This document shows positions 13,598 to 58,353 of a stretch of DNA of 64,000 nt, piece by piece. The notes under the pieces are model-generated. The model searched no databases, had not been told where the DNA came from, and worked only from the letters and a program-made list of their open reading frames with translations. Location of the stretch: contig JAEUHN010000051.1 in the NCBI GenBank assembly GCA_016795365.1, positions 62,001-126,000 of the forward strand. The letters are read 5' to 3'. Every line of letters starts with the position of its first letter. Positions within the stretch are counted from its first letter, which is position 1. The DNA is from Verrucomicrobiaceae bacterium (GTDB taxonomy: Bacteria > Verrucomicrobiota > Verrucomicrobiia > Verrucomicrobiales > Verrucomicrobiaceae). Both the position numbers and the translations under genes were made by a program.

Positions 13598-13600
13598 AGA

Positions 13601-16647: not shown

Positions 16648-16664
16648 CTCGGACCTTGGAGCCA

Positions 16665-16749: not shown

Positions 16750-16864
16750 GCGAGAACTTTCGCAACCACCCCCGAGTTTCCCACTCCGTCCCTGAAAGCT
16801 CCGCACTCGGACGGTTGTTTGACTCTTTGCTCTTAGCTCTCCGCCCTTTGCTTCCCCTTACCTC

Positions 16865-38792: not shown

Positions 38793-38925
38793 TCACCTCA
38801 CATACACTGTCGCCATACTCTTCGCGGGATAGCTCACGCGCAGGGCCGATGCGTTGGTTTTTTGGGCAGCAGCTTGGGTTAGGTGATGGCTTGATGAAAG
38901 CCGGAGCGCGCCGTGGATGCCATCT

Positions 38926-39597
38926 TCACCCCTCCACCCGCCTCCTCACTCGGCGCATCACCCACCCGGCCATGCCGAACATTAACAGCACCGCACGCGA
39001 GGGCTCTGGCGTGCCCAGGATCGTGAGTCCCCAGCTGACCAGCGTGCTCTCGTCACCGGCGGAGTTATCCGCCACGAACAGCGTCCATGTCCCATTGGCA
39101 CTGAGTCCTTGGAAGCTGCTCAGGTAGGCGGTGCGTGGATCGGTATCCACCACGAGATCGGGATCGATTTCGCGAGCATCCGGCTGCCAGTAGCCGGTCA
39201 CGAGTCCGCTGCCAGGGATCAACGTATGGATGTCATCAAAGGCATCATCGCTGAAGGTGACATTGAATCCCGAACTCGATGAACCCACGGTGCTCAGGCT
39301 CGTTTTCCCCGGACGATTGAGCAGCACGCTGAAGCCTGAGCTGTGGCTGAGATGCGCATATAGGTCACCATTCCAGCCGCCGCTCACGATCAGCCTCACT
39401 TCCACACTGGTGATGGAGGCCACAGGGCTGCTGATGATCACCCTGTTGTCCGCGTAGCCGGTGGGGTTGTTGTCAGGGATGGTGCCGTTGACCGTGTAGT
39501 CCACGATCGTGGTGGCAGCCTGACTGGCGGAGGTTGCCAGCAAGATGAATCCGACAAGGAGGGATACCGAGGCAGATCTAAGTGACAGAGAGTTCAT
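38926..39597 (-). CDS. PEP-CTERM surface protein with proprotein-convertase P-domain
   Basis: This 223-residue protein has an N-terminal signal (about residues 1-28, SLLVGFILLATSASQA). The middle part is a P/Homo-B domain (SITSVEVRLIVSGGWNGDLYAHLSHSSG and LSANGTWTLFVADNSAGDESTLVSWGLTILG), as found after kexin-type catalytic domains, but no protease domain is present. The C-terminus is a PEP-CTERM sorting tail: TPEPSRAVLLM, a hydrophobic segment and RRVRRR, for exosortase-dependent anchoring. It follows the giant secreted protein gene by 36 bp on the same strand. Confidence 0.87.
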   Translation of the reverse strand: MNSLSLRSASVSLLVGFILLATSASQAATTIVDYTVNGTIPDNNPTGYADNRVIISSPVASITSVEVRLIVSGGWNGDLYAHLSHSSGFSVLLNRPGKTSLSTVGSSSSGFNVTFSDDAFDDIHTLIPGSGLVTGYWQPDAREIDPDLVVDTDPRTAYLSSFQGLSANGTWTLFVADNSAGDESTLVSWGLTILGTPEPSRAVLLMFGMAGWVMRRVRRRVEG

Positions 39598-39633
39598 AGG
39601 CGAGACGTGGGGCTGGAGCAGGCTGCGCGATGC

Positions 39634-42600
39634 TTAGAGTTTAAGGCGGTAGAAGACGGTGGGCAGTGGAGCCGCGTTATCGACGAAGTTGATGACCCCT
39701 TGTCGAGTAGCCAAGGCGGTGCCGATATCATCCCACTTCGCAAGGTTGGTGGAGCGCTGGATCGTGTAGGTTCTGTTGGGCAGACCTGAGAAGGTCAGGC
39801 TGATCTTGGCGGTCGTTCCCGTGACGGATTCGATAGTCAACTGAGGGGGGTTCTTCGGATTCAGCGCGGGGTCCTGGGTCACTGTCACGGTGATCGTGCC
39901 GAGGGTAACAGCGACGCCATCCGTGATTTCGACTTGGAACGTATCGACACCGATCAAATCCACCGGTGGACTGTAGAGTATGTTCGCCTTGTCGGTCATC
40001 GTCAGCGTAGCCCCCGAGACGCTCGTGGCTGAGGGCAGCTTGCCGACGCTCAGAGCATCGCCGTTGGCATCACTCGCATTGGCCAGAATCTTGGCGAAAG
40101 CGATCTCGGCTGGCACGCCCTGAACGGTGGCAATGGTGAGTCCGCTGAAGCTCGGAGGAGAGTTCGCGACCACCGTGCCGGTGACAGGGAAGGTGAAGAG
40201 ACTCTGAACGGGATCGTTGGTGGTAATGGTCACCGGTCCGCTGAAGGTGCCCAGCGTATCCGCCTTGAGCTTGATGGTGAGTGTGGCGGACGCGCCGGCT
40301 GCCACCGAACTCGGGTTGGAGACGATTTGGTAACCGGTGGGCACGGTGACGTTGCTGATGGTCAGCGGACCGTTGCCCAGATTGTTGATGAGGTAACTCT
40401 TGCTCACCCCCGAGGTGCCCACTCGCGGCGTGCCGTAGCTAATGGCCGTCGCCTGGCCATTGATCAGCACGGGTGAGGTGGCGGTGCTGCCGTTGCGCAC
40501 TACGATGGAAGGCTCATGCGTGACGGAGCCGATGAGCTTCACCACGACGAAGTCGTAGTTGTTGATGCCCGTGGTGAATGCATAGCCGCCGATGTAGATA
40601 TCACCTTCGGCATCAATCAATACCTTCTGAGCGCTGGCGGCACCACCGAGCGGAAGGATCACTTTGCCTTGCGTTCCGAAGCTCAAATCCACCTCTCCTG
40701 TTGGAGTGTAACGCAGGACAACCCACTCGCCTCCAGCCTGACCGGCCACTACCAGTTTGCCATCCGCCTGCACCGCCACACTGAAGGCTTGTTCGCTATT
40801 GGTTGTCGGAGAGACATCTTCAATTGTGCTGCCCGTCCCATTGAACGTAGTGTCCTTCGCTCCCGAGGATAGAGCACGCCCGACGATGAACCCGTGGCCA
40901 ATCGATGGAACCAAGAGACTGCCACGCCGCGCTGAGAACACAGGCTTGCCGTCGGCTTGCAATGCCAGAGCGGTTGCGACCTCGCTCTTTCCACCGCCAA
41001 CATCAGTGGGATAACCGCCGGGTGCCGCGTATGGTTGGATCTGAACAGAATGTGATGTGCCTGCATCATTAACCTTCCAGAGTCCGATGTGGTTGATGGT
41101 TGAGGTGTCACTGCCTGCCGAGTAAATGTCCCCGGCTGCATTGGTGACTATGGCGCCTCCATAACCGCTGACACTAAGTGGCTGGGTTCCACCAATGCCA
41201 AAGCTGACATCAACCTCTCCGTTCGAACCGAAACGTCGAACGTAACCTCTGCGAAAACCTGAACTGGTGAGTTGCGTGCCCGCCAACAGGAGCTTGTTGC
41301 TCGGGTTCACGACGATGTGCCCTGTGCTGTCACCCAATGTCAAATCACCATCAATCACACGACCCTTGACACCGAAGATGGGGTCCAGCCCGCCGTCGGG
41401 AAGATATCGGATCAAGGCAAAACCCGGCAGACTCACCTGATCGAGACCACCGCTGTTTCGACGAGTGCCAGCAGCTACGATGTTATGCCCTTGCAAACAG
41501 ATGCCGGTTATACGGGCAGCGCCCAGTTCTGGCACGTCAGTGAGCACTTTCCCTCCGTTCCCAAAGCTGGCATCCAGTGCGCCATCACTCTTCAAGCAGG
41601 CCAGCGCAAAACGTCCGGTGCCCGCGTCGGAGTCAAAGTTCTCGCCAGCCAGCACGATCCTCCCGTCATCCAACCTCAGCATGTCGAAAGCGAAGTCACT
41701 GTTACCAAAGTCCACCCTCACCACGCCATTGGTGCCAAAGCGCGGATCGAAGCTGCCAACCGGGATCGACAACACCTCTCCCGTCACGGGGAACTCAAAC
41801 ACGGGATTGGCGCTGTCGTTGGTGGTGATCGTCACATTGCCGCTATTCGTTCCCAGCGTCAGGGCATCCAACTGCACGCTGAAGGTAGCTGTGCCCTGGG
41901 CCGGGATCGGCTCGGTCGGAGCGCCCAACACCTCGTAGCCGTCCGGGACGTCGATGTTGCTCACCGTCAGCGGCAGGGCGCGGACGTTGTTGATCGTGAA
42001 GCTATGCGTCACGGAGATGCCCAGCGGCGTCGGACCGTAGTCCACCGCCTGCGCTTGATTGTCCGCCAGTCGCTCATAACCCGTCTCACCGCCTTCGTGA
42101 GCAATGATCACCTGTGGCGACGTGACCTCGAAGATATAGGCGGCTCCGGAGTTTTGGGTGGCAGTATTGTCGCCTCCATTGCCGTTGATGCCCCTAGCGG
42201 CGCTGTCTTCATTGGAAGCACCGGCGACCACTAAATTGTCTCCGATAGCTACTGACAAGCCAAAGAAGTCCCCTTGGCCCGTGTTCGATGCCTTCAAATA
42301 GGCCTGCTGAGACCACGCTCCGCCGCTGCGCTGGAAGACATAGGCAGCGCCAGAGTTTACGCCCACAGCGTTACCGATCCCATCGCCGTTGATTCCTACT
42401 TCTGGACTAGATTCCCCAACTGCGCCGACAACAAGCGATTCATTGGAGATCGAGACCGCGTAGCCAAATTGCGATGTTCCTGCCAAACCTGTGTTCGATG
42501 CTTTCAGGTAGGCCTGCTGAGACCACACAACCCCGCTACGCTGATAAACATAGGCGGCACCAGTATTTCCGCCGCGATTGTTGTTGGCGTCGCCATTGAC

Positions 42601-45600
42601 GCCCATCGCGGCGCTATCTTCAGCGAAGGCACCCACGACGATGGTGTCGCCCGAAATCGCGACGGAGATGCCGAAGATGTCGCCCCCGTTCGTATTCGAT
42701 GCCTTGAGGTAGGCCTGCTGAGTCCACGCTCCGCCGCTGCGCTGGAAGACATAGGCAGCGCCGGCATACTCAAAGCCGGGTGTGTTGCTGCCATCGCCAT
42801 TGACGCCAATGGCACCGCTCTGCTCACCAAAGGAACCGACAACGATGGTGTCACCAGAAATACCCACTGAGTAGCCGAACAAGTCTATTCCGTCCGTGTT
42901 TGATGCCTTAAGGTAGGCTTGCTGAGTCCAAACGCCTGCAGTGCGTTGGAAAACATAGGCGGCACCGGCACTTTCAATGCCGGGTGAGTTGCCACCGTCT
43001 CCGTTCACGCCCGTGGCAGCACTATCGTCTCCGAATGCACCCACGACGATCGTGTCACCAGCTATTGCAACCGCATTGCCGAAGAAGTCACTAGCGTCTG
43101 TGTTTGAGGCTTTGAGATAGGCTTGCTGAGCCCAAACGCCTCCGCTGCGTTGGAAAACATAGGCGGCTCCGGCGCTTTCAAAGCCAGGGGAGTTGCCACC
43201 ATCTCCGTTAACCCCTGTAGCAGCGCTGTCTTCACCCGACGCACCCACGACCATTGAATCGCCCGAAATGGCAACCGAAACACCAAATCCATCACCGGGC
43301 CCCGTGTTCAAGCCCTTGAGCGGGGCACCTTCTTGAGTCCAGACACCGGTGAGAGCGTCTCGCACAAAAACATAAACAGCACCTCCCCCAGGTGCATTCG
43401 CGGCACCCACGACTACCGTATTGCCGCTGACAGCCACAGCACGGCCAAAGATGCTTGAGGCAGATGTGTCACTCGCCTTCGCATACGCCGTCTGGGCGAT
43501 CATCAGCGGGGTGACGCCTTCGCCCGTCAGCGGGATGTCGAAGGGATTCTCGTCGGCATCGGTGCTGGTGATGCGGAGGGTGGCGCTGTAGGTGCGCAAC
43601 GCATCGGGGCGAAACGTCACGCTCAAGCTGTTGCTCGCACCTGCGGGAAGCGTTGTCGTTAGTCCCTGTGTAACAAGCACGAAGGCGGCCGCATCCGGGC
43701 CGGTGATGGTCGCGGCGACGGAGCCGAGGCTGGTGACCGAGCCCACGTTCGTCACGATGAAGGTGCGTGCTGGGAAATTGACCCCAAGAGGCTGCCTGCC
43801 GAAGTCCAGCGTGGCTCCATCCACCAGCTCCGTGCCCAGCGGGTGCTGCACGGAAATCTCCGCGCCGATGCCGCGGCCGGTCGCGGTGCACACGCTGTTG
43901 GCGTTGTCACTCGTGAAGCCAAGAAGCGTATTTCGCAAGCCGAGTCCCTGAGGGGTGAAAGTGATGGTGACCTCCGCAGACTCACCTGGCGCGAGATCAT
44001 CATTCGCTACGAGCGCTGGGCTGGTGATCACATAGTCAGGCAGGCCCGGAGTGATTGTGCGGATGTTGAACACATGACCGGGACCGGAGTTGGTCAGGTT
44101 CACGGTTCGCGTCGATGTGGCTCCTGAACCGAAGACCACATCGCCGAATGGAAGGGTGCCACCAGACTCAAGAGGCGTGATGGAGAGCGAGGCAGCATTC
44201 GCATTGACGGTGATGGTCACATCCTTTTCAAAGCTCTCGCCGATGTGCTGCGCGCTCAGGCGCACAGCGATGCTCGGCGTGACCGAGCGACGGATCGGGC
44301 GGGCGGTGATGAGCTGCGAGCCGCTGATCGTCACCGCATCATTCGGTGTGGCGCTGACGATGGAGAAGGCGGGCGTGGCGGCTGGATCGGCAGGACTGAG
44401 GATCGCAGCGAGATTGGCAATCACGGTGCCGGCGGGCAGGTTCTCCAGCACGGTGGTGCTGCTGAGGGTGATGTCGGTGATGGACACGTCTGCGACGTTG
44501 ACGGTGAGGTCCTGCGCGAAAGTCTCGCCATTGGCATCCGTGGCCTTCACGCGCACGGTGCGGGTGGCGGCGGTCTCGAAGTCGAGCGCGGTGGCGCCGG
44601 TCTTGAGCGTGGTGCCGTCCAGGGTGAAGAGCGCATTGTCTGCCGCGCCTGCCACGAGTTCCCAGGTGCTGATGGCTGTGCCCGCAGGGATGATGGTGGC
44701 GGCGGAAAGAGCGCCCACGGTGATGTTGGCTTTGCCCTCGAGCACGGTGGAGGGTGACAGCGCGAGGGCAGTGGGGCCTTGGTCGGTCAGGGTGATGGCG
44801 AGGGTTTCTTCAAAGAACTCATTCGCGCCGTTGGTCACTCGCACCCGGATGTTGAAGGGGCCGCGGTCCTCAGGGGCGACGGCCTCCTTGTCAAAACTCT
44901 GGCTGCTGCGCAGGCTGCTGCCGCTGATGTTGAAGCGCACATTGTCCGGGAAGTTTGCTGCATCGACGAGGGTGAAGGTAAAGACGGCCCCGGGATCAGG
45001 ATCGATGGCACTGAGCACGCCGATGACCGTGTTGACAGGCTGGTTCTCGGCGATGCTGCTGGCGCTGAGGGCGATGTCCGTGGGCGCAGCCACATCCGTC
45101 ACGGTAACGACCAGAGCCTTTTCAAAGACCTCGCCGTTGGCATCCGTGGCCTTCACCCGGATGCTGCGTGTGGCAGCGGCCTCAAAGTCGAGCACCGCAG
45201 CCGTCTCGAGGGTGCTGCCATTCACCGCGAATAAAGCGTTGTCCGTGGAGCCTGCACCCGACACGAGAGCATAGGTCACGGCCGTGCCCAGCGGTGTGAC
45301 GGTGGAAGACAGGGTGCCCACACTGGTGTCGGCAGGCCGGTTCTCCTGCACGGAACCTGGACTGAGGGCGAAATCGGTCACGCCTTCGTTCGTCACCGTG
45401 ACCGTGAACGCTTGCTGAGCAGATTCACCGCCCTGGTTGGTGGCTTGCACCACCACGTTGAAAGAGTTGGGTGCCGTCTCGAAGTCGAAGGCACGGTTGG
45501 TGACGAGGTTGCCGCTGCTGACAGCGAAGGCCAGCGGCGCGGTCGTGCTGCCGTTCACGGACACGACGCTGAAGGTGGCCGGATCACCGCCGCCGGGCGG

Positions 45601-48450
45601 ATTCGTGGCACTGAGCGCGCCGATGATATGGCCCACCGCCTGGTTTTCCGGGAAGGAGTTCGCACTCAGCGCCAGCGCCGTGGGGCTCGGCACATCCTGC
45701 ACCTGAATGGTGAAGGCTTGCTCGAAGAACCCACCGCTGTTGTTGGTAACGCGGAGGCGGATGCTGTAGGAGGTCTTGGCTTCAAAGTCCAAGACGGTGC
45801 TGGACTTCGCCTGAAGCTGATTGCCGGAGATCTGGAAGAGCGCGTTGTCCGTGCTGCCCGTGCCGCTGACGAGGGTGAAGGTAAACGTCGCCGCCGGGTT
45901 CGGGTCCGTGGCCCCGAGCAGGCCGACGTTCTTGGGATCAGGCGCATTTTCCACGATCTGGCCCGTGCTCGAATTGCCACCTACCATGATGCCGGTGGGC
46001 GTGGTCTGAAAGTTGGAGAGGAAGACAATGTCCGACGTGTAGTTCACCTGGAAGGTGCCCTTGCCATCCGTGGTGCCAATGCGGCCGCCATTGACGATCG
46101 TCGTGCCATCGGCGCGTTTAAGAGTGCTTGAGGCCAGATTCTGATTCGAGTCCACCAAGATGAAGGTGTTGGCAGGTGTCGGGATAAAGGTGCCCAGCAG
46201 AGTGACCTCCAGCGTTGATCCCGCCAGATTCAGAGCTGTGGTGCCGCCCTCGATTATTTGGTCATGCTGCGTCCCTGCCGTGGTGCCGCCGATGTCAAAG
46301 CTCAGCTTGGAGCCGGAGGTCAGCGTGAGATCGCCGGTGATGGTCAGGGTGCCTGGGGTGGTGCCGATGCCTGGCTCGATGTGGATGTTGCCGCCGGAGG
46401 CGGTCACGCCACCTGTAACCGTGCCGCCACCTTGCAGCTTGCCGCCTTGGACGGTGAAAGTATTGGAGCTGCTGCCCCGGCTCACGTTGCCACCATTCAA
46501 GACCAGGGCTCCGGCGGTCTGGGTGTAGGTTCCGTTGAACAAAAGCGTGCCGTTGTTGACGTTGATGATGCCGCTGTTGTTCATGGCGGCACCGAAGGTG
46601 GTGGTGAGTGTCCCGTTTTGATTGAAAGTGCCTTCATTATTGAAAGTGCCTCCATTCGGCGCGCTGATGCTGTTGTTGGCCGTGGCGTTGATGACCGAGT
46701 CACTCCGGTTGTTGATGGTGGAGGGGTTCCTCATGAAAATGTCGCCGACTGACCAGGTGGTCGTGCTGCCCGCATCCGGGCCTGCGCCGTCGCCGAGCGT
46801 CAGGGTGGAGCTGTTGATCTCTCGTGTGCTGGCGTTGATCACCACATCGCCCAGAGCAGTGATTTTTGCCCCTTCCATGAATCCAGCTAGGTTTAGATTG
46901 CCATTCACCGTGACTAGCCCTGGGCCGGAGAGCTTGCCGAATTGACCGAGATTCAGATTTGGGTCCACCGTGACGGCCACATTGGCAGTGACCACGTTGG
47001 TAAGGTTGTCGGGTCCGTTGAAGTTCACGGTGCCCGACCCGGTAAAGGATGATCCCGCGTTGAGAGTATAATTATTCGAAATGGTCAATGTCGCTCCGCT
47101 AGCGACCGCAAAGGTCCCCGTGTTGGTGCCCGTCGGGACACTAATATTCAGAGTCCCTGAGTTCACCTGGACCAAGCCGCTGTTCTGAAACACAAACGCG
47201 TTGGTGTTGCCTCCGATCGTCGTGGTGCCGGTGCCATTCTGGTTAAACGTGCCCTCATTGTTGAAGGTCACGGACGTGCCATTAAAGGTGCTGGACATGG
47301 AGTTGTTTGCGGTCGCATTGATGACCGAGTCGCTGCGGTTGTTGATCGTCCCACCTTGTTCCAGGGCGATGCCACCGCTCGGCCAAGTGGTGGTGCTGCC
47401 TGTATCGGGACCTGCTCCGTCACCGAGATTCAATACCGCCCCATTTTTGATGCGACTGCCATTCCCCATCGTCATGGTCACATCCCCGAGGGCTGTGACG
47501 TTAGCGCCGCTCAGGGATCCCGCACCACCCTGCAGGGCAAAGGTTCCGTTGACGGTCACAGGGCTGGAGCCAGTGAGTTCGCCTTCGATCGCAAGGTTGG
47601 AGTTCACCGTCGTGGCAGCGCTGGCTGTGACGGTTCCAACGAATTTGGCGGTTCCAGCACCCGTGAAAAGGCTGTTGGTAGAGAGGGTATGATTGCTACC
47701 AAGCTCGAGCGTGGCACCACTGGCAATCTGGAAAGTGCCTGTGTTAGTGTGGGTGCTGGAGCCGGTGCCAGCCCCGATGATCAACTTGCCTGCACCGACA
47801 TCGACGGTGCCACTGTTGTTGAAGTTGAAGTTGTAGGCACCGCTGGCGACGGTTGCGGTGCCAGCTCCGTCATTCTTTGTGAAAGTGCCCTGGTTATTGA
47901 AGGTGGCCGTTCCGCCTCGAATGTTGGCCAATTGTTTTCCAGCCACCGCCACGTTGAAGTTGGAGTCGATTCGGTTGTTGATAATCGCTCCATTGGCCAG
48001 AGTCACATCGGCAGTGATCCAGTTCGTGGTTTGAACAGGTCCTGCGCCGTCACCATAGTTCAGCGTTCTGCCATGGATTTCCAAGGTTCCGATGGACCCT
48101 CCGCCCAGGGCATAGATGGCTCCCGAGCCATCCATCTTGAACCCGGTAAGTGTTAGGGCGTCGTTGGTGGTGAGAGCGAATCCCGCCCCCGTGTTCGTCG
48201 CGGTGCCACTGAAGGTGAACTTCTGAATCGTGATATCCTGGTTCACGGTGAGCACACCGGCGTTTTGGACGGCATCGTAGGTGGATGTGCCATTGTTCGG
48301 GAAGATGCCCGTCGCCCCTGGAGTGGTCCAGTTGCCACCCACGCTCCAATTCGTGTTGATGGAACCGTTCCATGTGGAGGTGAAGTCTGCGGCGGAAGCA
48401 GCGACGGGCAGCAGCAGGACGAGAAAACGGAGCAGGCGGATGGAGTTCAT
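39634..48450 (-). CDS. Giant secreted repeat protein (beta-helix, cadherin-like, FG-GAP, delta-60 domains)
   Basis: The protein has 2938 residues. ATG 48450 gives a clean signal peptide (MNSIRLLRFLVLLLPVAASAA) preceded by an AAGAAGAG-type ribosome site; the frame is open to 48621 without homology. In order: autotransporter-type beta repeats rich in N, G and T (about 25-800); cadherin-like repeats of the ADFALSP/TDIALSASSIAENQP type (830-1400); choice-of-anchor-D segments (1420-1650); FG-GAP_2 repeats, about six (1650-2120); another anchor-D segment; delta-60 repeats with FGTNGVV/SFGNGGKV marks (2230-2620); final Ig-like and FN3-like modules (2620-2938). No PEP-CTERM or autotransporter barrel ends it. 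It is probably cell-surface or secreted and adhesive; that is inference. Confidence 0.9.
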   Translation of the reverse strand: MNSIRLLRFLVLLLPVAASAADFTSTWNGSINTNWSVGGNWTTPGATGIFPNNGTSTYDAVQNAGVLTVNQDITIQKFTFSGTATNTGAGFALTTNDALTLTGFKMDGSGAIYALGGGSIGTLEIHGRTLNYGDGAGPVQTTNWITADVTLANGAIINNRIDSNFNVAVAGKQLANIRGGTATFNNQGTFTKNDGAGTATVASGAYNFNFNNSGTVDVGAGKLIIGAGTGSSTHTNTGTFQIASGATLELGSNHTLSTNSLFTGAGTAKFVGTVTASAATTVNSNLAIEGELTGSSPVTVNGTFALQGGAGSLSGANVTALGDVTMTMGNGSRIKNGAVLNLGDGAGPDTGSTTTWPSGGIALEQGGTINNRSDSVINATANNSMSSTFNGTSVTFNNEGTFNQNGTGTTTIGGNTNAFVFQNSGLVQVNSGTLNISVPTGTNTGTFAVASGATLTISNNYTLNAGSSFTGSGTVNFNGPDNLTNVVTANVAVTVDPNLNLGQFGKLSGPGLVTVNGNLNLAGFMEGAKITALGDVVINASTREINSSTLTLGDGAGPDAGSTTTWSVGDIFMRNPSTINNRSDSVINATANNSISAPNGGTFNNEGTFNQNGTLTTTFGAAMNNSGIINVNNGTLLFNGTYTQTAGALVLNGGNVSRGSSSNTFTVQGGKLQGGGTVTGGVTASGGNIHIEPGIGTTPGTLTITGDLTLTSGSKLSFDIGGTTAGTQHDQIIEGGTTALNLAGSTLEVTLLGTFIPTPANTFILVDSNQNLASSTLKRADGTTIVNGGRIGTTDGKGTFQVNYTSDIVFLSNFQTTPTGIMVGGNSSTGQIVENAPDPKNVGLLGATDPNPAATFTFTLVSGTGSTDNALFQISGNQLQAKSSTVLDFEAKTSYSIRLRVTNNSGGFFEQAFTIQVQDVPSPTALALSANSFPENQAVGHIIGALSATNPPGGGDPATFSVVSVNGSTTAPLAFAVSSGNLVTNRAFDFETAPNSFNVVVQATNQGGESAQQAFTVTVTNEGVTDFALSPGSVQENRPADTSVGTLSSTVTPLGTAVTYALVSGAGSTDNALFAVNGSTLETAAVLDFEAAATRSIRVKATDANGEVFEKALVVTVTDVAAPTDIALSASSIAENQPVNTVIGVLSAIDPDPGAVFTFTLVDAANFPDNVRFNISGSSLRSSQSFDKEAVAPEDRGPFNIRVRVTNGANEFFEETLAITLTDQGPTALALSPSTVLEGKANITVGALSAATIIPAGTAISTWELVAGAADNALFTLDGTTLKTGATALDFETAATRTVRVKATDANGETFAQDLTVNVADVSITDITLSSTTVLENLPAGTVIANLAAILSPADPAATPAFSIVSATPNDAVTISGSQLITARPIRRSVTPSIAVRLSAQHIGESFEKDVTITVNANAASLSITPLESGGTLPFGDVVFGSGATSTRTVNLTNSGPGHVFNIRTITPGLPDYVITSPALVANDDLAPGESAEVTITFTPQGLGLRNTLLGFTSDNANSVCTATGRGIGAEISVQHPLGTELVDGATLDFGRQPLGVNFPARTFIVTNVGSVTSLGSVAATITGPDAAAFVLVTQGLTTTLPAGASNSLSVTFRPDALRTYSATLRITSTDADENPFDIPLTGEGVTPLMIAQTAYAKASDTSASSIFGRAVAVSGNTVVVGAANAPGGGAVYVFVRDALTGVWTQEGAPLKGLNTGPGDGFGVSVAISGDSMVVGASGEDSAATGVNGDGGNSPGFESAGAAYVFQRSGGVWAQQAYLKASNTDASDFFGNAVAIAGDTIVVGAFGDDSAATGVNGDGGNSPGIESAGAAYVFQRTAGVWTQQAYLKASNTDGIDLFGYSVGISGDTIVVGSFGEQSGAIGVNGDGSNTPGFEYAGAAYVFQRSGGAWTQQAYLKASNTNGGDIFGISVAISGDTIVVGAFAEDSAAMGVNGDANNNRGGNTGAAYVYQRSGVVWSQQAYLKASNTGLAGTSQFGYAVSISNESLVVGAVGESSPEVGINGDGIGNAVGVNSGAAYVFQRSGGAWSQQAYLKASNTGQGDFFGLSVAIGDNLVVAGASNEDSAARGINGNGGDNTATQNSGAAYIFEVTSPQVIIAHEGGETGYERLADNQAQAVDYGPTPLGISVTHSFTINNVRALPLTVSNIDVPDGYEVLGAPTEPIPAQGTATFSVQLDALTLGTNSGNVTITTNDSANPVFEFPVTGEVLSIPVGSFDPRFGTNGVVRVDFGNSDFAFDMLRLDDGRIVLAGENFDSDAGTGRFALACLKSDGALDASFGNGGKVLTDVPELGAARITGICLQGHNIVAAGTRRNSGGLDQVSLPGFALIRYLPDGGLDPIFGVKGRVIDGDLTLGDSTGHIVVNPSNKLLLAGTQLTSSGFRRGYVRRFGSNGEVDVSFGIGGTQPLSVSGYGGAIVTNAAGDIYSAGSDTSTINHIGLWKVNDAGTSHSVQIQPYAAPGGYPTDVGGGKSEVATALALQADGKPVFSARRGSLLVPSIGHGFIVGRALSSGAKDTTFNGTGSTIEDVSPTTNSEQAFSVAVQADGKLVVAGQAGGEWVVLRYTPTGEVDLSFGTQGKVILPLGGAASAQKVLIDAEGDIYIGGYAFTTGINNYDFVVVKLIGSVTHEPSIVVRNGSTATSPVLINGQATAISYGTPRVGTSGVSKSYLINNLGNGPLTISNVTVPTGYQIVSNPSSVAAGASATLTIKLKADTLGTFSGPVTITTNDPVQSLFTFPVTGTVVANSPPSFSGLTIATVQGVPAEIAFAKILANASDANGDALSVGKLPSATSVSGATLTMTDKANILYSPPVDLIGVDTFQVEITDGVAVTLGTITVTVTQDPALNPKNPPQLTIESVTGTTAKISLTFSGLPNRTYTIQRSTNLAKWDDIGTALATRQGVINFVDNAAPLPTVFYRLKL
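42281..43340 (-). repeat. DNA-level tandem repeats encoding FG-GAP_2 units
   Basis: Six near-copies of the sequence around GTGTTCGATGCCTT begin at 42281, 42491, 42692, 42896, 43100 and, most diverged, 43303, so the period is 201-210 bp (67-70 codons). Each codes for a unit with YLKASNT, FGxxVAISGDTIVVGA and NGDGGN motifs. High nucleotide identity points to recent unequal crossover or gene conversion. Confidence 0.85.
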
Positions 48451-48766
48451 CAGTCTCTTCTTTCCCGCGGTCGAAAGTGTGTGGCAAAATTGGACCAAAT
48501 TTGTCGTGAAGGGCTCACACGTCACAGCGGCAACTGGTGACGGATGAACTGCGCCGAGCACCCGAAAACGGATGTTGCGAGGGAGTCGAAACACTAGCTG
48601 GAGCATGGTTCTTGTATTCATGGCGCATCAGGGGAGAGAGGGATCGTGGACAGCGGAGAAGTGGAAGGATGGCGGGACCCGAGTCGGGCGCTGAGGAGCC
48701 ATGAGCAGGCATGGCGCTGGGCGAAGGGAATGAGTCGGGGTGTGGTGAAAGGGACCTGGGACGACA
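48451..48766. other. 316-bp gene-free leader between the LuxR-type gene and the giant gene
   Basis: This is probably the promoter and leader of the giant gene. A purine-rich ribosome-site candidate (GAAAGAAGAG) lies just before its ATG. I see no convincing -35/-10 pair, no strong hairpin and no supported small gene. Confidence 0.5.
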
Positions 48767-49180
48767 TTATCGGGGCTGTGTCACACGAGGTATTACCCGT
48801 TCAGGTAGGGTGCCGGCATGGCGGGCGGCATTGCGGATGTGGGCCCGGTAGGCGTATCCAGTGGCAGCGGAGCGGCTGTGAATGCCAAGTCGCTTGAAGA
48901 TGTCCTTGATGTGCATCTTCACGGTATTGATCGAGCAGCCAAGGATGGTGCCGATCTCCTCATTGCTCTTGCCTTCGGCCACCCAGTGCAGCACCTGCGC
49001 CTGGCGCTGGGTGAGATTGAGTTCCTCCCTCAAGATGCGCGCGGCATCCATTTCATCCGGCGCGGGATCGTCGGTGGACAGTTCCATCCGTGCCCATAGA
49101 GTGCCCGCGAAGCGACTGCCATTACTCGAACGGGTGTGACGTGAGAGCGAAGTAGAGCCTGTGAGAGAACGCGATGACAT
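48767..49180 (-). CDS. LuxR-type helix-turn-helix transcriptional regulator
   Basis: The protein has 137 residues from ATG 49180; an internal ATG at 49087 would give 106. Residues about 50-112 are a GerE/LuxR HTH: LTQRQAQVLHWVAEGKSNEEIGTILGCSINTVKMHIKDIFKRLGIHSRSAAT is spread over this stretch. There is no receiver or autoinducer domain, so it is a DNA-binding module alone. It begins 59 bp after the kinase stop and lies just upstream of the giant gene, the obvious candidate target. How it is switched on is not visible; phosphorylation by the kinase is a hypothesis. Confidence 0.85.
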   Translation of the reverse strand: MSSRSLTGSTSLSRHTRSSNGSRFAGTLWARMELSTDDPAPDEMDAARILREELNLTQRQAQVLHWVAEGKSNEEIGTILGCSINTVKMHIKDIFKRLGIHSRSAATGYAYRAHIRNAARHAGTLPERVIPRVTQPR

Positions 49181-49239
49181 GGTTCACCGCGGCTCTTCGG
49201 AAGCCTGTGGGGCCGATTACAGGCTGCTTGAATTTTTTT

Positions 49240-52200
49240 TCAGGGCCGGGTGTGCGGCGTTTCTTTTTGCGATCCGTAAGCGGTGACGAGCACCACGCGC
49301 AGACCTTGATGCAGCAGCCGTTCCGCGTGTGGGACTCCGGCCCGTGCAAAACTGTGCGCACCGAGTCGGCTGCCGAGCGTCCACGAACCGCCGCGCACCA
49401 CTTTCTTGGTGTGGGTGTCATCGAAGCTGGTCAGCGTCCACTCCTGCACATTGCCCCCCATGTCGTGAAGTCCGATGGCATTCGGTGCAAAGGAACCGAC
49501 CGGCGCGGTATGCACAAACCCGTCACGATAGCCATGGATCACGTCTTTGAAGGCGCTGCCGGCGGCCTTTGTGAGTTCCGGCAGGCATTCTTCACCAGCG
49601 TAGTTGCCTGCACTCGGTGGAGGTGGCCAGGCAGAGCCCCAAGGGAAGGTGTCGAGATGCTCATTCACCTTCGAGGCAGCCGGGCGGCCGAGCGACTCCA
49701 AGCTGCCAACACCCGCCGCGCAGCTCCATTCGAGGTCGTCGGGCAGACGATAGGATTCCTCCGGCGAGAGCCTACCCCTCGCACGATCGCGAACCGTCAG
49801 CCACTCGGCAAAAGCCACGCCGTCGTCGTGGGTGATGTTGACCGCCGGATGATCCGGGCCTTGGGTAAAGTCAGGCTTGGGCCACTCACGTTTCGTTTCC
49901 TTAACGAAGACTTCATAGTCGCACACACGAGTCTCCCAAACGCTATAAAGGACGTATCGCCCCGCGACGGGCCCGATGGTGACTTCCACCGGCACGAATT
50001 TCATGCCGAGGCTGTTCGTGAAGGGAGCATCCTTCGTTGCTTTGGCGACTGGCGTGTTGAAACGGCTCACCGATGCCAGTTTGGGAGCTTGGGCTGGTGC
50101 AGGCGCTGGCTTCGCCGGAGGCTTGGCGCTCGGCGCAGCCTCCGCCAGCACCACGCGCAGCCCGAAACTTGGCGGGCGATGGCTCGGAAGCGAGTTGCCA
50201 CGCGTGATCAGTTTGGCTCCCTCGCCTGTGTTGTTGAGGAAGCTATGCCCGCGCAGCACCCGGTTCTGCTGTTTCTCATCGAACCAGTCCTCACACCATT
50301 CCCAGACATTGCCGCTCAGGTCGTAAAGACCCTGCTCGTTCGCCGGAAACGAGCCGACGGGGGCGGTCGTCACAAACGGATCGCGGTAGCCTTTGATGAT
50401 CCATGTGATGTTCGAAATGCCGGGTTCATTGAGAAGCGGGAGAGCCTCCTCTCCAGCCAAGTTCGCCACCCCTGGAGGCGGGGGCCACGCTTCACCCCAC
50501 AAGAACTGACCGCTCAACACATAGGCTTTGCTCGCCGGAAGCGCGGTGCTGTCTTCCAAATGACCGACGCCCGCCGCACAGCTCCATTCGTGGTCCAGAG
50601 GCAGGCGATAGCGCAGGCGTGTGGGGAGCTTGCCAGCTTGGTGCTCCTGTTCAGTGAGCCACTGGCAAAAGGCCTGTGCGTCCTCCCAGCTCAACTGTGC
50701 CGAAGGATGAGTGGGGCCTTGCTCAAAGCCGATCGGCGGACGCTCCTGCTGGGTTGCCTTCAGGAAAGCGTCAAAGTCCTGAACACGCGTCTCCCAAATG
50801 CTGAAAAGCACGCGCTGCTGGTCCGTGGGGCCACCCGTGATGGGGACGGGCACAAATTTCATGCCAAGCGTGTTCTCGAAGGCGAAATCACGGCTCGCCA
50901 GGTCCGGGTGTCTCACCGTTGTCGGCGGGCTGTCCTTGGGCACGCGCTGCATTTGCCAGAGATCTCGGTCACCTTCGCCATGCGGCCCCTTCCAAGAAAA
51001 CCAAAGCGTGCCTCCGTCGGCTGATAGACAGGGTTCTGAGACCATGCCCTGCACCGGCAGATCGACCGTTTGCACCTGATAGCCACCGCTGCCATCCGGC
51101 ACGACCACATGCAGCACGCTGGCTGAATGGTCGTCGAACATGCGGGTAAACAGCAGCGTGCGGTCATCTGCTGCGAGAAAGAGCTCACGGTCCTGGATGA
51201 ACGTATTGATCGCGGGACCCAGGTTCTCGATTTCACCAAAAGGGGCATCGGTCGTCCTTCGCGATGCACGCCACAAATCATGGCCTCCATAGCCACCGCC
51301 CCGCAGCGAACAAAAGTAGAGTGTTAGTCCATCTGAACTCAGGCAGGGCGACTGGTCGTGCGTAGTCGAGTTCACCGTTTTCAGGTTCGTTAGATTCCCC
51401 CAAGACGCGCCAGGATCGCTCCGCTGCATCATGTAAAGGTCCATGGCTCCACCGTTGTTGTCGGGCCCGGAGCCGCTGACATACAGAAGCGTGCGTCGGT
51501 CCCGCGTGATCCATGGTGCCCCGGCCCAGTTTGAGGTCATGCCAGCGACCTTTTGTGGAGCGCCAAAGGCTTCGCGCACACTGCTCCGGCGGCATTCATA
51601 AAAATGTCTGAAGCCGTCGCGAGGAGAAGCAAATGTCAGGATCAGCCCATCCGACGAGATATGCGGATCGCCATCGTCTGCCGCGCTATTCACCTCGGGC
51701 CCGAGATTCACCGGTGCGGTCCATTTGAAATCGGGCGATGTCAGACGGTGGGCGATGCTGCCCGGCTCGAGTTTGACCACAGAACGCGGAGCGGGAGCTG
51801 CCTCTGCGCCCAGCGAGGCGTATTCCAATCGCAAAACACGAGTCATGGGAGACTCCGGTTTGGGCCGCACGCGAAGAAAGAGACGACCACGAGTGAGAAC
51901 GGAGTCTTTGAAGGCCACCAGCTCGCGTCCGTCGAGCCAGAGGCGCATCGTGTCCCCCTGCGCAGCGAAGACCATCTCGTGCTCTTTGGATGGATCGTAG
52001 GATTTGCCGAGGGAAAACGTCACCGGCTTGATGTCCGGGTGCTCGACCACATTCGTGGTGCCGATGCCAATGACGGCATCGCCATTCGGCCGCACCTCGC
52101 CGACGTAATACTCGTCCAACGTGCCACGCAAACCGAGCGACACCGCGCCCGAATACGTCACGCGCATCGCCACATCGCCAAACTCACGACTTTCAGCGAG

Positions 52201-53415
52201 ATCGAGATGCGTGTCCTTGCGCATTTCCAGCCAGCGGTCCTTCACGCTGCCATATTGATAGAGCGCCGCTGTGGCCGCCAGCTCCGGAGTGGCATCCATC
52301 CATGCGTTTGGCTTCGGGTAGTTGCTATCACGCTTCTCACCGCCAAAGATCATCCACAAAACCGCTGTCAGCACGGCAAACGATGCCGCAAGCACGATGA
52401 ACGGCCTCTTGCGACGGCGAATGTGCTCGTCGGTCAATGGTGAGATGCGTGAGAGCATCGCCTGCATGGCCTCCGCAGCGCCCAGGCGGTCCTGCGGTAG
52501 CGGTTGCAGCGCCTGCGAGACGATCTTGTCCCATGCCGGATCGATTGCGACCGTCTGCGAGGGCGGTTTCCAATCTCCACGCGGCAGCTCGCCCGTGAGC
52601 ATCTGGTAAATCATCACGCCGAGCGCGTAGATGTCCGCGCGCTGATCCACGGCGGCATCCACGCGCATCTGTTCCGGCGCTGCATAGGCAGGTGTGCCTC
52701 CCACGTCATCCATATGACTCGGCTCGCCTTCCTGGGGCTCCAACTGCGTCGCCAGACCAAAATCCGCCAGTTTGATGCGCCCATCGCGCATCAGGATGAT
52801 GTTCGAGGGCTTGATGTCGCGATGCACGATGCCGTGCGTGTGGGCGAATTGCAGCGCCTCGCAAACCTGCTTCATGATCGTCAGCGCCCGCGCCTCCGAC
52901 ACTCCGCCACTGTGGATGACGTCCATCAAGTTCGCCCCATCGACGAACTCCATCACGATGAAGAGGAAGTCCGGTCCGGCTTCACCGCAGTCGATCACAT
53001 TCACCACGCCCGGATGATTCAATCGCGCCAGCGTCTGCGCCTCGCGCAAAAAGCGCAGCCGGAACTCCGCATCCAGCGCCTGGTCCTGGCGCATGATCTT
53101 GATCGCCACCGGCCGCTTCAGCACCGTCTGCGTGCCTTTGTAAACCGCGCCCATGCCGCCACGGCCGATAAAGGTCTCCACGCTGTAAAACCCGCGCGGC
53201 AGCATCGCCGCCACCTCCTCCGGCGATGGCGGCTCCCACTTCGGTGAGACTGGTGTCGGTGCAGGCGCTCCCACGGGCACCGTGTCGTCCAACAGTGACG
53301 GCTCCATGAGCGCCACCTTCCTCAGGCAAGCCGGGCACTTCCCGCCCAGCACCTCCGCCGAGATGGGCGTGCCGCAAGTCATGCAGGTGGTTGTCTCGCG
53401 AGGCAGGTCGTTCAT
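49240..53415 (-). CDS. Transmembrane Ser/Thr protein kinase with PD40 propeller and two SUMF1-like domains
   Basis: The protein has 1391 residues. A zinc-ribbon-like start (CMTCGTPI...CPACLRK) precedes a kinase at about residues 80-320: FIGRGGMGAVYKG, VAIKIM, HGIVHRDIKPSN (about residue 195), KLADFGLAT and AAPEQM, all intact. One membrane span (FIVLAASFAVLTAVLWMIF) lies at about 338-360. Outside the membrane come a LamG/DUF1080-like segment, PD40 propeller repeats (about 560-840, DPHISSDGLILTFAS type) and two SUMF1 domains (850-1090 and 1135-1381, NSLGMKFVPV and NVWEWCEDW marks). Neither SUMF1 copy has the paired active-site cysteines of formylglycine-generating enzyme. It overlaps the sigma gene by ATGA. 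Confidence 0.93.
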   Translation of the reverse strand: MNDLPRETTTCMTCGTPISAEVLGGKCPACLRKVALMEPSLLDDTVPVGAPAPTPVSPKWEPPSPEEVAAMLPRGFYSVETFIGRGGMGAVYKGTQTVLKRPVAIKIMRQDQALDAEFRLRFLREAQTLARLNHPGVVNVIDCGEAGPDFLFIVMEFVDGANLMDVIHSGGVSEARALTIMKQVCEALQFAHTHGIVHRDIKPSNIILMRDGRIKLADFGLATQLEPQEGEPSHMDDVGGTPAYAAPEQMRVDAAVDQRADIYALGVMIYQMLTGELPRGDWKPPSQTVAIDPAWDKIVSQALQPLPQDRLGAAEAMQAMLSRISPLTDEHIRRRKRPFIVLAASFAVLTAVLWMIFGGEKRDSNYPKPNAWMDATPELAATAALYQYGSVKDRWLEMRKDTHLDLAESREFGDVAMRVTYSGAVSLGLRGTLDEYYVGEVRPNGDAVIGIGTTNVVEHPDIKPVTFSLGKSYDPSKEHEMVFAAQGDTMRLWLDGRELVAFKDSVLTRGRLFLRVRPKPESPMTRVLRLEYASLGAEAAPAPRSVVKLEPGSIAHRLTSPDFKWTAPVNLGPEVNSAADDGDPHISSDGLILTFASPRDGFRHFYECRRSSVREAFGAPQKVAGMTSNWAGAPWITRDRRTLLYVSGSGPDNNGGAMDLYMMQRSDPGASWGNLTNLKTVNSTTHDQSPCLSSDGLTLYFCSLRGGGYGGHDLWRASRRTTDAPFGEIENLGPAINTFIQDRELFLAADDRTLLFTRMFDDHSASVLHVVVPDGSGGYQVQTVDLPVQGMVSEPCLSADGGTLWFSWKGPHGEGDRDLWQMQRVPKDSPPTTVRHPDLASRDFAFENTLGMKFVPVPITGGPTDQQRVLFSIWETRVQDFDAFLKATQQERPPIGFEQGPTHPSAQLSWEDAQAFCQWLTEQEHQAGKLPTRLRYRLPLDHEWSCAAGVGHLEDSTALPASKAYVLSGQFLWGEAWPPPPGVANLAGEEALPLLNEPGISNITWIIKGYRDPFVTTAPVGSFPANEQGLYDLSGNVWEWCEDWFDEKQQNRVLRGHSFLNNTGEGAKLITRGNSLPSHRPPSFGLRVVLAEAAPSAKPPAKPAPAPAQAPKLASVSRFNTPVAKATKDAPFTNSLGMKFVPVEVTIGPVAGRYVLYSVWETRVCDYEVFVKETKREWPKPDFTQGPDHPAVNITHDDGVAFAEWLTVRDRARGRLSPEESYRLPDDLEWSCAAGVGSLESLGRPAASKVNEHLDTFPWGSAWPPPPSAGNYAGEECLPELTKAAGSAFKDVIHGYRDGFVHTAPVGSFAPNAIGLHDMGGNVQEWTLTSFDDTHTKKVVRGGSWTLGSRLGAHSFARAGVPHAERLLHQGLRVVLVTAYGSQKETPHTRP

Positions 53416-54155
53416 ACGCCAAACAAATGCTTCATCTCCGCATCGACTTCGGATGGATCAGCCACGGTCATCTCCACTTGCGCACGCACACCATGACGAA
53501 ATCGCCTCCGCAAGCGATGCACCGCCACGGCGAAGGCCTGTGGCGTGAGACCGATCGGACCGCACACACTCGCGTAGCCATCCTCACCCGAATCCGCGGT
53601 TAAATACGGCTCCAAGGCCTTGAAGACGTCGCTGCGGCCCGATGCGGTGTATTCCTCGCGCAAGCTGGCCAGCGCGCGGTCCATAAGGATGAGCGCCCAG
53701 TTCTGATCGAAGGCTTCCCCTGGGCTCAACGAGGGTGAGGCAACCTCCCGGAACCAGGTCTCGCCCTCGTCGGTATTCAATGACAGCGGCATCTCGCCCG
53801 CGCCGCGCTTCTGGGCGTTGCGATCACGCCAATGGTCCGCGATCAGATGATCCAGCGCCGCGAGCAGGAAGGAGCGGAACCTTCCCCGCGATTGATCCGC
53901 ACGACCGAAAGACTGCCGCCGAAGCAGGCGCGCAAAGAAGTCCTGCGTGAGATCTTGGGCATCCGCCGATGAATAGCCACGCCTGCGCAGCTCGCCGTAA
54001 ACCGGCTTCCAGTAAGCACGGCAAAGGTCACCGATGGCCTGCTCCGCGCCTGCGTCATCTTTGGCCAGGGCAAGGAGCGACCATCGCGTGGCGGGAAACG
54101 CACCGGCACGGGAGGAAGAGTTTTCGGATCGCTCAATCCTGGGAGAGTCAGGCAT
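53412..54155 (-). CDS. ECF-type RNA polymerase sigma factor (planctomycete/verrucomicrobial class)
   Basis: The protein has 247 residues from ATG 54155 (MPDSPRIERSEN); an ATG at 54197 adds 14 residues. The PATRWSLL start and AYWKPVYGELRRRGYSSADAQDLTQDFFARLL (region 2) are typical of the PVC-group ECF family. The region-4 HTH is near the end (SVCGPIGLTPQAFAVAVHRLRRRFRHGVRAQV). Its stop overlaps the kinase start by ATGA, so the two are translationally coupled. No anti-sigma factor is adjacent; the kinase is the likely controller, as known for ECF-kinase pairs. Confidence 0.92.
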   Translation of the reverse strand: MPDSPRIERSENSSSRAGAFPATRWSLLALAKDDAGAEQAIGDLCRAYWKPVYGELRRRGYSSADAQDLTQDFFARLLRRQSFGRADQSRGRFRSFLLAALDHLIADHWRDRNAQKRGAGEMPLSLNTDEGETWFREVASPSLSPGEAFDQNWALILMDRALASLREEYTASGRSDVFKALEPYLTADSGEDGYASVCGPIGLTPQAFAVAVHRLRRRFRHGVRAQVEMTVADPSEVDAEMKHLFGV

Positions 54156-54222
54156 GTGCTTACGCTGGCGAGGTCTCTGCATTTTGACAAGGCTCATCCA
54201 TTGAGCCCCCTGACACCGAACC

Positions 54223-55731
54223 CTATCTCACATAGACCGCATAAAGCTTAGCCGCGCTCTTCGTTGCAAAGTTCACGCGCAGAACGATGCGCTTGTCTTG
54301 CGGCAACGGCTTCGACCACGCGATGGTTTGATGCAGGCCCCTTTGTGTCACGGTCGCGGTGTAGCCATCGAGAGGATGATCGAGGTGGTCGAGCAACTGC
54401 ACGTTCAGCGGTGAGGCGTCGCTTACGCCATCAACGTTGAGCGCGATCTCGCTGGCGATGAAGGGGCTGGTGACGACGTGCGCGTCGTTGTCCTCCACCT
54501 TGGGAGAGAGGTAGCCGAAGCCATCGCGGCGCAGCGTAGCGAGGCCGATGTCCATGTGCTCAAGCACGCCGCCGGTGTCCCAGTGCGAATACCAGATCAT
54601 GGTCTTGTCGCCTTCATTCACAAAGGCGTGGCCTTGCAGGATCGCCACGTCGTCCCACTCGCCGTCTTTGCCGCGCGGGATCATTTTGAAGCCGGGAACG
54701 GGTTCCCGGAAGTGCACGCCGTCGTTGCTGATCACGAGGCCGAGATCGACATGCACACCGTAGTTCCAGCTCTTGCCTTTCGGGGGCGGTTGCTCAGCAT
54801 CCTGCCACAGACCATTGAGGCCGACGAGCACATTGCCACGGTTCCAGATGCCCGCGCCCATGTGACCTTGCTGGCCTTTCACTGGCGGCTCGGCGAGCTG
54901 CCCAGTGCGGGCAAGCGAGAGTGCTTTGGCTTGCGACCAATTCACGAAGTCCGGCGAACGATACGCCAGCGTCACGCGACCCACATCACTGCCGTCCGCA
55001 CGCCAAGCCCAGGGCGAGAGCAACTGACCCGTGGTGTAGTAGAAGTCGCCAAAGCGATACAGGCCGCTGACCTCGAAGCGCTCGCCACCTGCGTTCGCGG
55101 GACGATCCCCAACGCACTTCCACGTCAGTCCATCCGCGCTGGTCGCGGTGATGGTTGCGCCCCATCGTTTTTCATTGGGACCGATCTTGCTACGCCCACC
55201 CTTCACGTCCTCGATGGGCATGTGGGCGATGAAGGCGCACTTGTAGCGTTTGGTCGCGTCGGGCTCGTTCGGTTCGTAGAGCACGGAGAGGAAGTCGTTC
55301 ACGCGCGTCATCGAGTGCACCTCGCTCTCGATGAGGCAGATGTTGTTCTTCTTGCTGCCATTGAACTCCATGAGGCCCAGCTCTGGCTTCGTCCAGTTCA
55401 CGCCGTCCTTGCTCTCGGCGTAGCACATCGGTCGCCACCAGCCCGGCGCCTGGCCTTTGACAATCTCTTTCTCCACCATGCCGAGATACCACATGCGGAA
55501 GGTGTCGCCGGTCTTCAGCACGGTGCCGTAAAGAATCGCGTGCCCCGCATCAGCAGAGCTCGGCGGACCGCTGCGCAGCACCGGATTGGCAGGATGCTTC
55601 GTGGCTGGCACGAGCGTGAGCTTGAGATTGTGCTGCCACGCGAGATTGACGTCGTCAAAAGCGAAGAAAGTCTGCTCCGCCGCATGGACATGCAGCGCAA
55701 AAAGGGCCATGAGGCAGAGACGAAGATTCAT
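54223..55731 (-). CDS. Secreted five-bladed propeller protein (GH43/GH32-like), paralogue A
   Basis: The protein has 502 residues from ATG 55731 (signal peptide MNLRLCLMALFALHVHA). Blade-like repeats are MWYLGMVEKEI, YAESKDGVNWTKPELGLMEFNGSKKNN, AYRSPDFVNWSQAK, NRGNVLVGLNGLW and LVISNDGVHFREP. The arrangement follows glycoside hydrolase clan GH-F/J-type propellers. A C-terminal beta-sandwich follows from about residue 400. Catalytic residues could not be assigned. It is a paralogue of the next gene upstream, sharing NRGNVL, DGEWD and LSNDG stretches. Confidence 0.8.
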   Translation of the reverse strand: MNLRLCLMALFALHVHAAEQTFFAFDDVNLAWQHNLKLTLVPATKHPANPVLRSGPPSSADAGHAILYGTVLKTGDTFRMWYLGMVEKEIVKGQAPGWWRPMCYAESKDGVNWTKPELGLMEFNGSKKNNICLIESEVHSMTRVNDFLSVLYEPNEPDATKRYKCAFIAHMPIEDVKGGRSKIGPNEKRWGATITATSADGLTWKCVGDRPANAGGERFEVSGLYRFGDFYYTTGQLLSPWAWRADGSDVGRVTLAYRSPDFVNWSQAKALSLARTGQLAEPPVKGQQGHMGAGIWNRGNVLVGLNGLWQDAEQPPPKGKSWNYGVHVDLGLVISNDGVHFREPVPGFKMIPRGKDGEWDDVAILQGHAFVNEGDKTMIWYSHWDTGGVLEHMDIGLATLRRDGFGYLSPKVEDNDAHVVTSPFIASEIALNVDGVSDASPLNVQLLDHLDHPLDGYTATVTQRGLHQTIAWSKPLPQDKRIVLRVNFATKSAAKLYAVYVR

Positions 55732-55776
55732 GACTCGATTGTGATCCCCTGGCACGTGGCTACCAGCGCAACATCT

Positions 55777-55795
55777 TGGTCCGTTAAGCGGACCA
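55777..55795. promoter_or_regulatory. 7-bp stem-loop between the two propeller genes
   Basis: TGGTCCG and CGGACCA flank TTAAG. It lies 46 bp upstream of the paralogue A start and about 50 bp after the paralogue B stop. It could be an operator or an RNA stabiliser; there is no T-tract for a classical terminator. Confidence 0.35.
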
Positions 55796-55844
55796 GAAAC
55801 TGAACTGGTGCGCGCCTATGCGAGCAGAGCCACCATCAAATCGG

Positions 55845-57392: not shown

Positions 57393-57519
57393 AGGGGAGG
57401 ACAGTCTTTTCGATTCAATCCCGGACGATCGCAATTTGAATGAAAGCGATGACCGAAATGACCAGAACTTCACCCAAGACGACTCAGAGTTGAGCAGATC
57501 CGAACGCATCGAACAGGAC

Positions 57520-58353
57520 TTACCGAAACACCTCAAGCATCTCAGCCATAACCTCTTCATCACCGAACTCGCTCGCCGCAATAGCTTGATCCAGATGCGC
57601 AGGCGAACGTCCACCGACGAGCACTGTGTCAATGCCACGCTGGTGCAATGCCCATGCTAGCGCCAGGTGGGTCTGCGAATGTCCCGTGCGCATCGCGATG
57701 GCTTCGAGCTTGGCAAGACGTTGGTAGGCCGACTCGTGGAAATACACCTGCTGATGACCGGGAATGATCTCGAAGCGTGAGCCTGCTTGAACGCCGCTTT
57801 GATGCTTGCCGGTCAGAAACCCAGCGCCCAACGGACTATAGGTAACGATGGCGATGCTATTCGCAGCACAGTGACAGCGCAGTTCAGCACTCACATCGCT
57901 CACAGCGAGGTTGTGATTGTTTTGAACGACGCTGAAGCGAGAGCCCGCGGAGCGCAGTTGATCGAGTGAAACGTTGCTGACGCCCAGCTTCCTGACCAAG
58001 CCTTTGCTCACCAGAGCATCGAGCGTCGATCCGCAATGAAGAGCCGTCTCATGCCATTGATGCAGGTAGAGCAGATCGATTTGTTCAAGGCCCAGCCGGT
58101 CCAAATTGGGACGAATGTCGATGCGATCATACGGAGGCAGCACCTTGGTCGCGATGATGATGCTCTCGGGTCTTCGCGAGGCGAGCCATCGACCGAGGAT
58201 GGCTTCGGAAGCTCCGCCACCATAGGCTGCTGCGGTGTCGAAGTGCCGAACGCCTCGCTCATAGGCATGATCAAGCAGGGCGAAGGACGCAGCTTCATCA
58301 ATCTCTCGTCCGAAGGTGACACAACCGAGTCCGATCTGAGGTGAGTGGATCAT
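57520..58353 (-). CDS. Aldo/keto reductase
   Basis: This 277-residue TIM-barrel oxidoreductase is NADPH-dependent by family. The tetrad is visible: Asp and Tyr in RHFDTAAAYGGGASE, Lys in IATKVLPP and His in DLLYLHQWHE. The cofactor-binding end includes VLVGGRSPAHLDQAI. ATG 58353 (MIHSPQIGLGCVTFG) is chosen from a longer open frame because the family starts at LGLGT-like residues. It is divergent from the next propeller gene, sharing a 163-bp promoter region. Confidence 0.92.
   Translation of the reverse strand: MIHSPQIGLGCVTFGREIDEAASFALLDHAYERGVRHFDTAAAYGGGASEAILGRWLASRRPESIIIATKVLPPYDRIDIRPNLDRLGLEQIDLLYLHQWHETALHCGSTLDALVSKGLVRKLGVSNVSLDQLRSAGSRFSVVQNNHNLAVSDVSAELRCHCAANSIAIVTYSPLGAGFLTGKHQSGVQAGSRFEIIPGHQQVYFHESAYQRLAKLEAIAMRTGHSQTHLALAWALHQRGIDTVLVGGRSPAHLDQAIAASEFGDEEVMAEMLEVFR

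Follow-up and report, generated by a model that had tools for sequence, protein, structure and literature searches.

A run of five genes on the minus strand of a Verrucomicrobiaceae genome (38926-54197 of the window, the 64,000-nt stretch of DNA that was analysed) raises the question of whether a sigma factor, a membrane kinase and a short HTH protein are encoded beside a giant surface protein by chance, or form a unit that controls its production. The original prediction described five same-strand genes, with an ATGA overlap of the sigma stop codon with the kinase start codon and a 59-bp gap between the kinase stop codon and the start of the HTH gene, and the ORF calls agree with this layout (Table 1). 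The sigma ORF starts at 54197; 54155, where the original prediction placed the start, is an internal ATG. For the giant gene, the most likely start is 48450, with a signal peptide (MNSIRLLRFLVLLLPVAASAADFT), which gives the 2938-aa protein listed.

Table 1. Features of the array and its candidate regulatory sites (window coordinates).
Feature	Coordinates	Strand	Description
Sigma gene	53412..54197	-	ECF-type sigma factor, 261 aa; possible internal start 54155
Kinase gene	49240..53415	-	Hanks Ser/Thr kinase with transmembrane helix and outer domains
Candidate ECF promoter CCTGTAATC-N15-CGAAGA	49194..49223	-	Ends 13 nt before HTH ATG; A-tract just upstream
HTH gene	48767..49180	-	Short LuxR/NarL-type (GerE) HTH protein, 137 aa
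Palindromic site 1, CACCCGTTCGAGTAATG	49120..49136	-	Inside HTH gene, about codons 16-21
Palindromic site 2, TACCTGAACGGGTAATA	48791..48807	-	Near HTH stop codon, upstream of giant gene
Giant gene	39634..48450	-	Secreted surface protein, 2938 aa; ORF from 48621 gives 2995 aa
Small P-domain gene	38926..39597	-	223 aa; signal peptide and PEP-CTERM sorting tail

The array is flanked by related sequence. Just downstream, an 85-bp decayed copy (38818-38902) matches 54257-54339 with 71% identity (E 0.001); its source is the 3' end of a gene upstream of the array (54223-55755), and it is possible that the array was inserted next to members of that gene family or duplicated together with them. Two adjacent genes at 54223-57638, encoding proteins of 510 and 597 aa that are mutually similar by eye, look like secreted glycoside-hydrolase-type propellers, and searches of Pfam and NCBIfam returned no match for either.

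The protein first described as a sensor kinase is indeed a kinase, of the Hanks Ser/Thr type rather than a histidine kinase, with intact VAIK, HRDIKPSN and DFG motifs. Its domain order is an N-terminal Cys4 knuckle, the kinase domain, one hydrophobic transmembrane helix (approximately aa 338-359), a LamG-like region, PD40 and two FGE-like domains. Pfam matches cover Pkinase (6e-53), FGE-sulfatase (3e-51, in two stretches) and PD40 (2e-12); the LamG-like region is our own reading, without a Pfam match. Among the kinases examined from related loci described below, HRD and DFG are intact in all, and VAIK in all but one. The FGE-like domains have a C-type-lectin fold. In formylglycine-generating enzyme, the active-site cysteine follows an RGGSW motif. 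Neither FGE-like domain of the kinase has a cysteine at this position, and both are therefore likely, to judge from their sequences, to bind rather than to catalyse.

The sigma factor matches Sigma70_r2 in Pfam (E 1.6e-8) and TIGR02937 (38.5 bits), and the best structural matches of its predicted fold are ECF sigmas, at weak scores (E 0.04 and up). Region 4 has no Pfam match; C-terminal helices are predicted. Region 2.2 contains SADAQDLTQDFF with two acidic residues, and the Thr that follows its DAQD motif occurs in the window sigma and in most of its clade without being invariant. Approximately 27 paralogues of this sigma are encoded in the 6.74-Mb host genome, most of them adjoining a Ser/Thr kinase, so a sigma-kinase pair by itself is no discovery. 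At one host locus (L034, contig C25:127000-145700), three sigma-kinase pairs lie in tandem at 3323-17016, which suggests local duplication of the pair.

The original prediction treated the array as a unit and named a lack of conserved synteny as part of what would refute it; a comparison of synteny bears the unit out. A profile built from five HTH proteins picked up 16 strong places among 68 genomes of the family, with a gap in E from 4e-34 to 2e-24 dividing the HTH family from ordinary LuxR proteins; a 387-genome sample covering the phylum gave no further members. A scan of genome contigs gave three informative loci, the remainder being mostly ordinary LuxR genes. Seven colinear cassettes with the order sigma-kinase(-kinase)-HTH-surface protein occur in five genomes (one each in the window, G010 and G078, two each in G058 and G062), and this order is kept across three genera despite diverged sequences. 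In G010, several smaller genes separate the HTH gene from a fragment resembling the N-terminus of the giant protein. Four more HTH genes (G062, G068 and two in G061) belong to a divergent type. In G062, G068 and one G061 contig the sigma-kinase pair lies on one side and the HTH gene on the other, with a surface gene visible in G062; the second G061 contig opens with the HTH gene and continues into a surface gene of 3106 aa. In three further genomes (G028, G075, G057) the HTH gene occupies one orthologous locus with no surface gene adjoining. The linkage of the cassette genes is well supported as conserved, and the full five-gene array is not accidental.

Phylogeny separates the same groups. 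In a tree of 37 sigmas, those of the seven colinear cassettes form one clade (100/100) separate from the other paralogues, and four divergent-type sigmas, including one whose locus has no surface gene, form another. In the HTH tree, the proteins of the seven colinear cassettes group weakly (79/80). A search across the bacterial family for the window sigma type found nine places, seven of them the colinear cassettes; the other two are a G061 locus that runs sigma-kinase-kinase-motif-HTH start before the contig ends, and a G068 locus where the contig ends right after the sigma gene. Kinase, motif and HTH start are present in all eight of the nine places with readable downstream DNA. In one G062 region, the second sigma falls together with a host sigma from a sigma-kinase-PEP-CTERM surface protein locus, an order of genes that is a third recurring arrangement, found in the G062 region and in the host genome.

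Some loci have additional features around the HTH gene. Two G061 contigs, L239 (G061:C194, 1-10247) and L226 (G061:C265), end in nearly identical HTH sequence, which follows a 3333-aa surface gene in L239 and two kinases in L226; the assembly thus breaks at a repeated HTH gene, a hint that HTH-giant units may lie in tandem. A protein of 286-396 aa, absent from the window, is encoded between the HTH and surface genes in L200 (11304-12494), L199 (6784-7884) and L056 (4173-5033). The three copies have a common C-terminus (KAIFRVGDQRVGQWSDE and variants), and a Pfam search with the L200 copy gave no match. In L056, from G010, the interval that separates the HTH gene from the following gene also contains a TTCGGATCATCCGTCGG-like unit repeated many times in tandem (approximately 5050-5290).

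The suggestion that the sigma-kinase pair controls nearby genes gained support from an invariant ECF-type element before the HTH gene. CCTGTAATC and the 15-nt spacing are identical in all eight colinear-type loci, with a spacer of varying sequence; the second block is CGAAGA throughout, except in one G061 copy (CGAAAA), and an A-tract lies upstream of the element in most of these loci. To judge by its sequence, the element has the layout of an ECF promoter, and the position of the window HTH start codon means that an mRNA made from it would be nearly leaderless. The host genome contains a single match at up to one mismatch. Across 17 other genomes there are seven zero-mismatch matches, all directly before HTH genes and all in cassette genomes, and one of them exposed another HTH start, after the 3333-aa surface gene in G061. 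No zero-mismatch element was found in the 11 genomes without a colinear cassette. The one-mismatch matches, one in a genome without a colinear cassette and one at a second G058 place, are of the kind expected by chance. The element and its restriction to cassettes are well supported, and their co-occurrence with the window sigma type suggests that this sigma reads the promoter.

Other promoter candidates fared poorly. A sigma-70 promoter scan across the array returned no more than chance, and a promoter shared by every sigma paralogue (TGTAA-N15..17-CG before genes) was rejected, as one weak match was all that the regions around the paralogues gave. With no shared paralogue promoter, the element before the HTH gene seems specific to the colinear sigma clade. 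A second CCTGTAATC upstream of a G058 payload lacks the spacing and was put down to chance. Four divergent-type loci have GTAACG ahead of the HTH gene, with no second element fixed by eye.

Every colinear HTH gene also contains a pair of inverted repeats that follow the pattern YACCC-NNNN-GGGTAAT or a variant of it; the first lies close to the start (mostly around codon 16-22) and the second 33 nt before the end. The window palindrome is similar to NarL operators, which are inverted repeats with a short spacer. Site 1 is present in 15 of the 16 HTH-family members, and all seven colinear cassettes have site 2 at the same position; the two are the sole zero-mismatch matches in the host genome, and one-mismatch matches occur at control level. 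Within the family, the palindrome arms covary at two positions beyond a nearly invariant CCC/GGG, and nucleotide identity is 0.64 in the sites versus 0.24 in the rest of the N-terminal half, on small numbers. This is modest evidence for constraint at the DNA level. Since the palindromes are located inside coding sequence, they could partly reflect protein constraint, and they might also act as RNA hairpins. Both are candidate operators, with site 1 read as putatively autoregulatory and site 2 as the putative connection with the giant gene. Divergent-type HTH genes have a palindrome in their recognition-helix codons, which was ascribed to codon use.

These features can be combined into a self-contained cassette leading from signal to surface protein. 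The membrane kinase would sample the periplasm or the outside through its LamG-like, PD40 and FGE-like domains, and would activate its partner ECF sigma, presumably through phosphorylation by analogy with known pairs. The sigma would drive the dedicated promoter that lies immediately before the HTH gene, and the HTH protein would bind the palindromes within its own gene. At site 1, just past the promoter, it would limit its own expression; at site 2 it would switch on the giant surface protein and its PEP-CTERM partner. The HTH genes that lack an adjoining surface gene (three genomes) or a visible sigma-kinase pair (two others) speak against this scheme. No promoter of the giant gene was identified, and the gene may have one of its own. 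As a whole, this chain of events strikes us as an even call.

The sign of the last step could be reversed. If the HTH protein repressed the giant gene, a sigma-driven rise in its level would turn surface-protein production off. GerE proteins can repress, site 1 lies within the transcribed region just past the promoter, and no evidence fixes the sign. However, in several cassettes the payload starts approximately 110-350 bp downstream of site 2, a usual distance for activation, and we consider repression unlikely.

A different route would bypass the sigma factor, with the kinase phosphorylating the short HTH protein directly and the sigma just transcribing the control genes or acting on other targets. 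The HTH protein matches HTH-type families alone (GerE, 2.8e-19 in Pfam) and lacks a receiver domain, and Ser/Thr residues are plentiful in its variable N-terminus, which carries a conserved [RH][TS]G motif; moreover, in G011 and G001 an HTH gene stands before a giant gene with no sigma-kinase pair in view. While these observations are compatible with direct phosphorylation, the ECF-type element before the HTH gene argues for the sigma acting on that gene, and the N-terminal motif coincides with palindromic site 1, so its conservation may serve the DNA site. Direct phosphorylation of the HTH protein seems quite improbable.

The proposed output is a set of large and varied surface proteins. The giant protein comprises an N-terminal repeat region, cadherin, choice-of-anchor D, seven FG-GAP repeats, delta-60 and a cadherin-like end, and may function as an adhesin. 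Its small neighbour has a P-domain (E 6e-7) and a PEP-CTERM match (TIGR02595, 20.1 bits against a cut-off of 16). Payloads range from 829 to 3380 aa among cassettes, with differing domain sets; parts of the giant protein are common to other payloads, some of which share just the N-terminal repeat region. The sigma and the kinase domain are retained between cassettes, but the outer sensor parts are diverse, with FGE pairs in some, a LamG-like part only in others, or other repeats. The control part of the cassette is constant, and sensor and output vary. It is possible, and we suggest it tentatively, that the cassette is an insulated, exchangeable unit in which private sigma-promoter and HTH-operator pairs connect a swappable sensor to a swappable giant protein, so that a genome would hold a repertoire of separately triggered surface states.

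The association with surface proteins was also assessed in the host genome, starting from 22 surface-protein loci defined by delta-60 or choice-of-anchor D in a domain search independent of the sigma. Six of these giant or repeat surface genes adjoin a sigma-kinase block or, on contig 16, a sigma gene, which is followed there by a 2500-aa giant gene and a PEP-CTERM gene, with no HTH gene. Gene counts predict 0.2-0.5 such cases (binomial P 3e-8 to 6e-6), and random placement predicts 1.0 (P 4.5e-4). With some 27 sigma paralogues and about 22 repeat surface genes in one genome, occasional adjacency is likely, but a co-inherited neighbourhood of chance neighbours with no regulatory coupling is very unlikely given this enrichment, the conserved order in three genera and a promoter element specific to cassettes.

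Several parts of the cassette have known counterparts. Like NarL/FixJ-type regulators, the window HTH protein has a GerE DNA-binding domain; it differs in its lack of a receiver domain, its length of 137 aa and its apparent dedication to one locus. Similarly, the PEP-CTERM/exosortase system of surface proteins is represented by the sorting tail that the small protein and several payloads carry, and by two exosortases (PF09721 genes) in the host genome, whereas the giant window payload has no such tail.

The closest comparison is with kinase-linked ECF sigmas. Kinase-linked activation is known for ECF43, in EcfP/PknT of Vibrio parahaemolyticus and EcfK/PknS of Xanthomonas citri, where the latter pair controls the T6SS (PMC8999054, PMC13147305). 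As far as the accessible parts of these sources go, ECF43 pairs resemble the array in that the gene of an ECF sigma adjoins that of a membrane Hanks kinase with an outer part, and in that they control nearby genes; neither an HTH relay nor a giant surface payload is described for them there. ECF43 sigmas lack the acidic DAED motif and have uncharged residues instead (PMC8999054), whereas the window sigma retains acidic residues in region 2.2. Membership in ECF43 was rejected on this ground, and the charge-restoring mechanism of EcfP is not simply transferable to a sigma that keeps DAQD. A further mark of ECF43 is a conserved Thr that the kinase phosphorylates; the Thr next to DAQD is not invariant in the window sigma's clade. 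Other kinase-linked groups (ECF59, ECF61, ECF62 and ECF217, with planctomycete examples) retain the acidic motif and resemble the array in having a kinase beside the sigma and no anti-sigma; their targets are not given in the accessible part of the source (PMC8999054).

Kinase-linked ECF sigmas are abundant in the host Verrucomicrobia genome, and the accessible literature names targets for ECF43 pairs only. Here a concrete target promoter is predicted at single-base resolution, and several natural replicates and internal negatives exist, which makes the kinase targets directly testable, and the cassette suggests how such genomes might choose which giant surface proteins to produce. The array was initially put forward as a candidate for an undescribed system. 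This holds insofar as no description of a sigma-kinase-HTH-surface protein cassette was found in the open-licence literature, but not insofar as kinase-linked ECF sigmas are an established class. The cassette is best called a variant of that class, to which it adds an HTH relay, surface proteins as the output and a promoter that the host genome contains only once.
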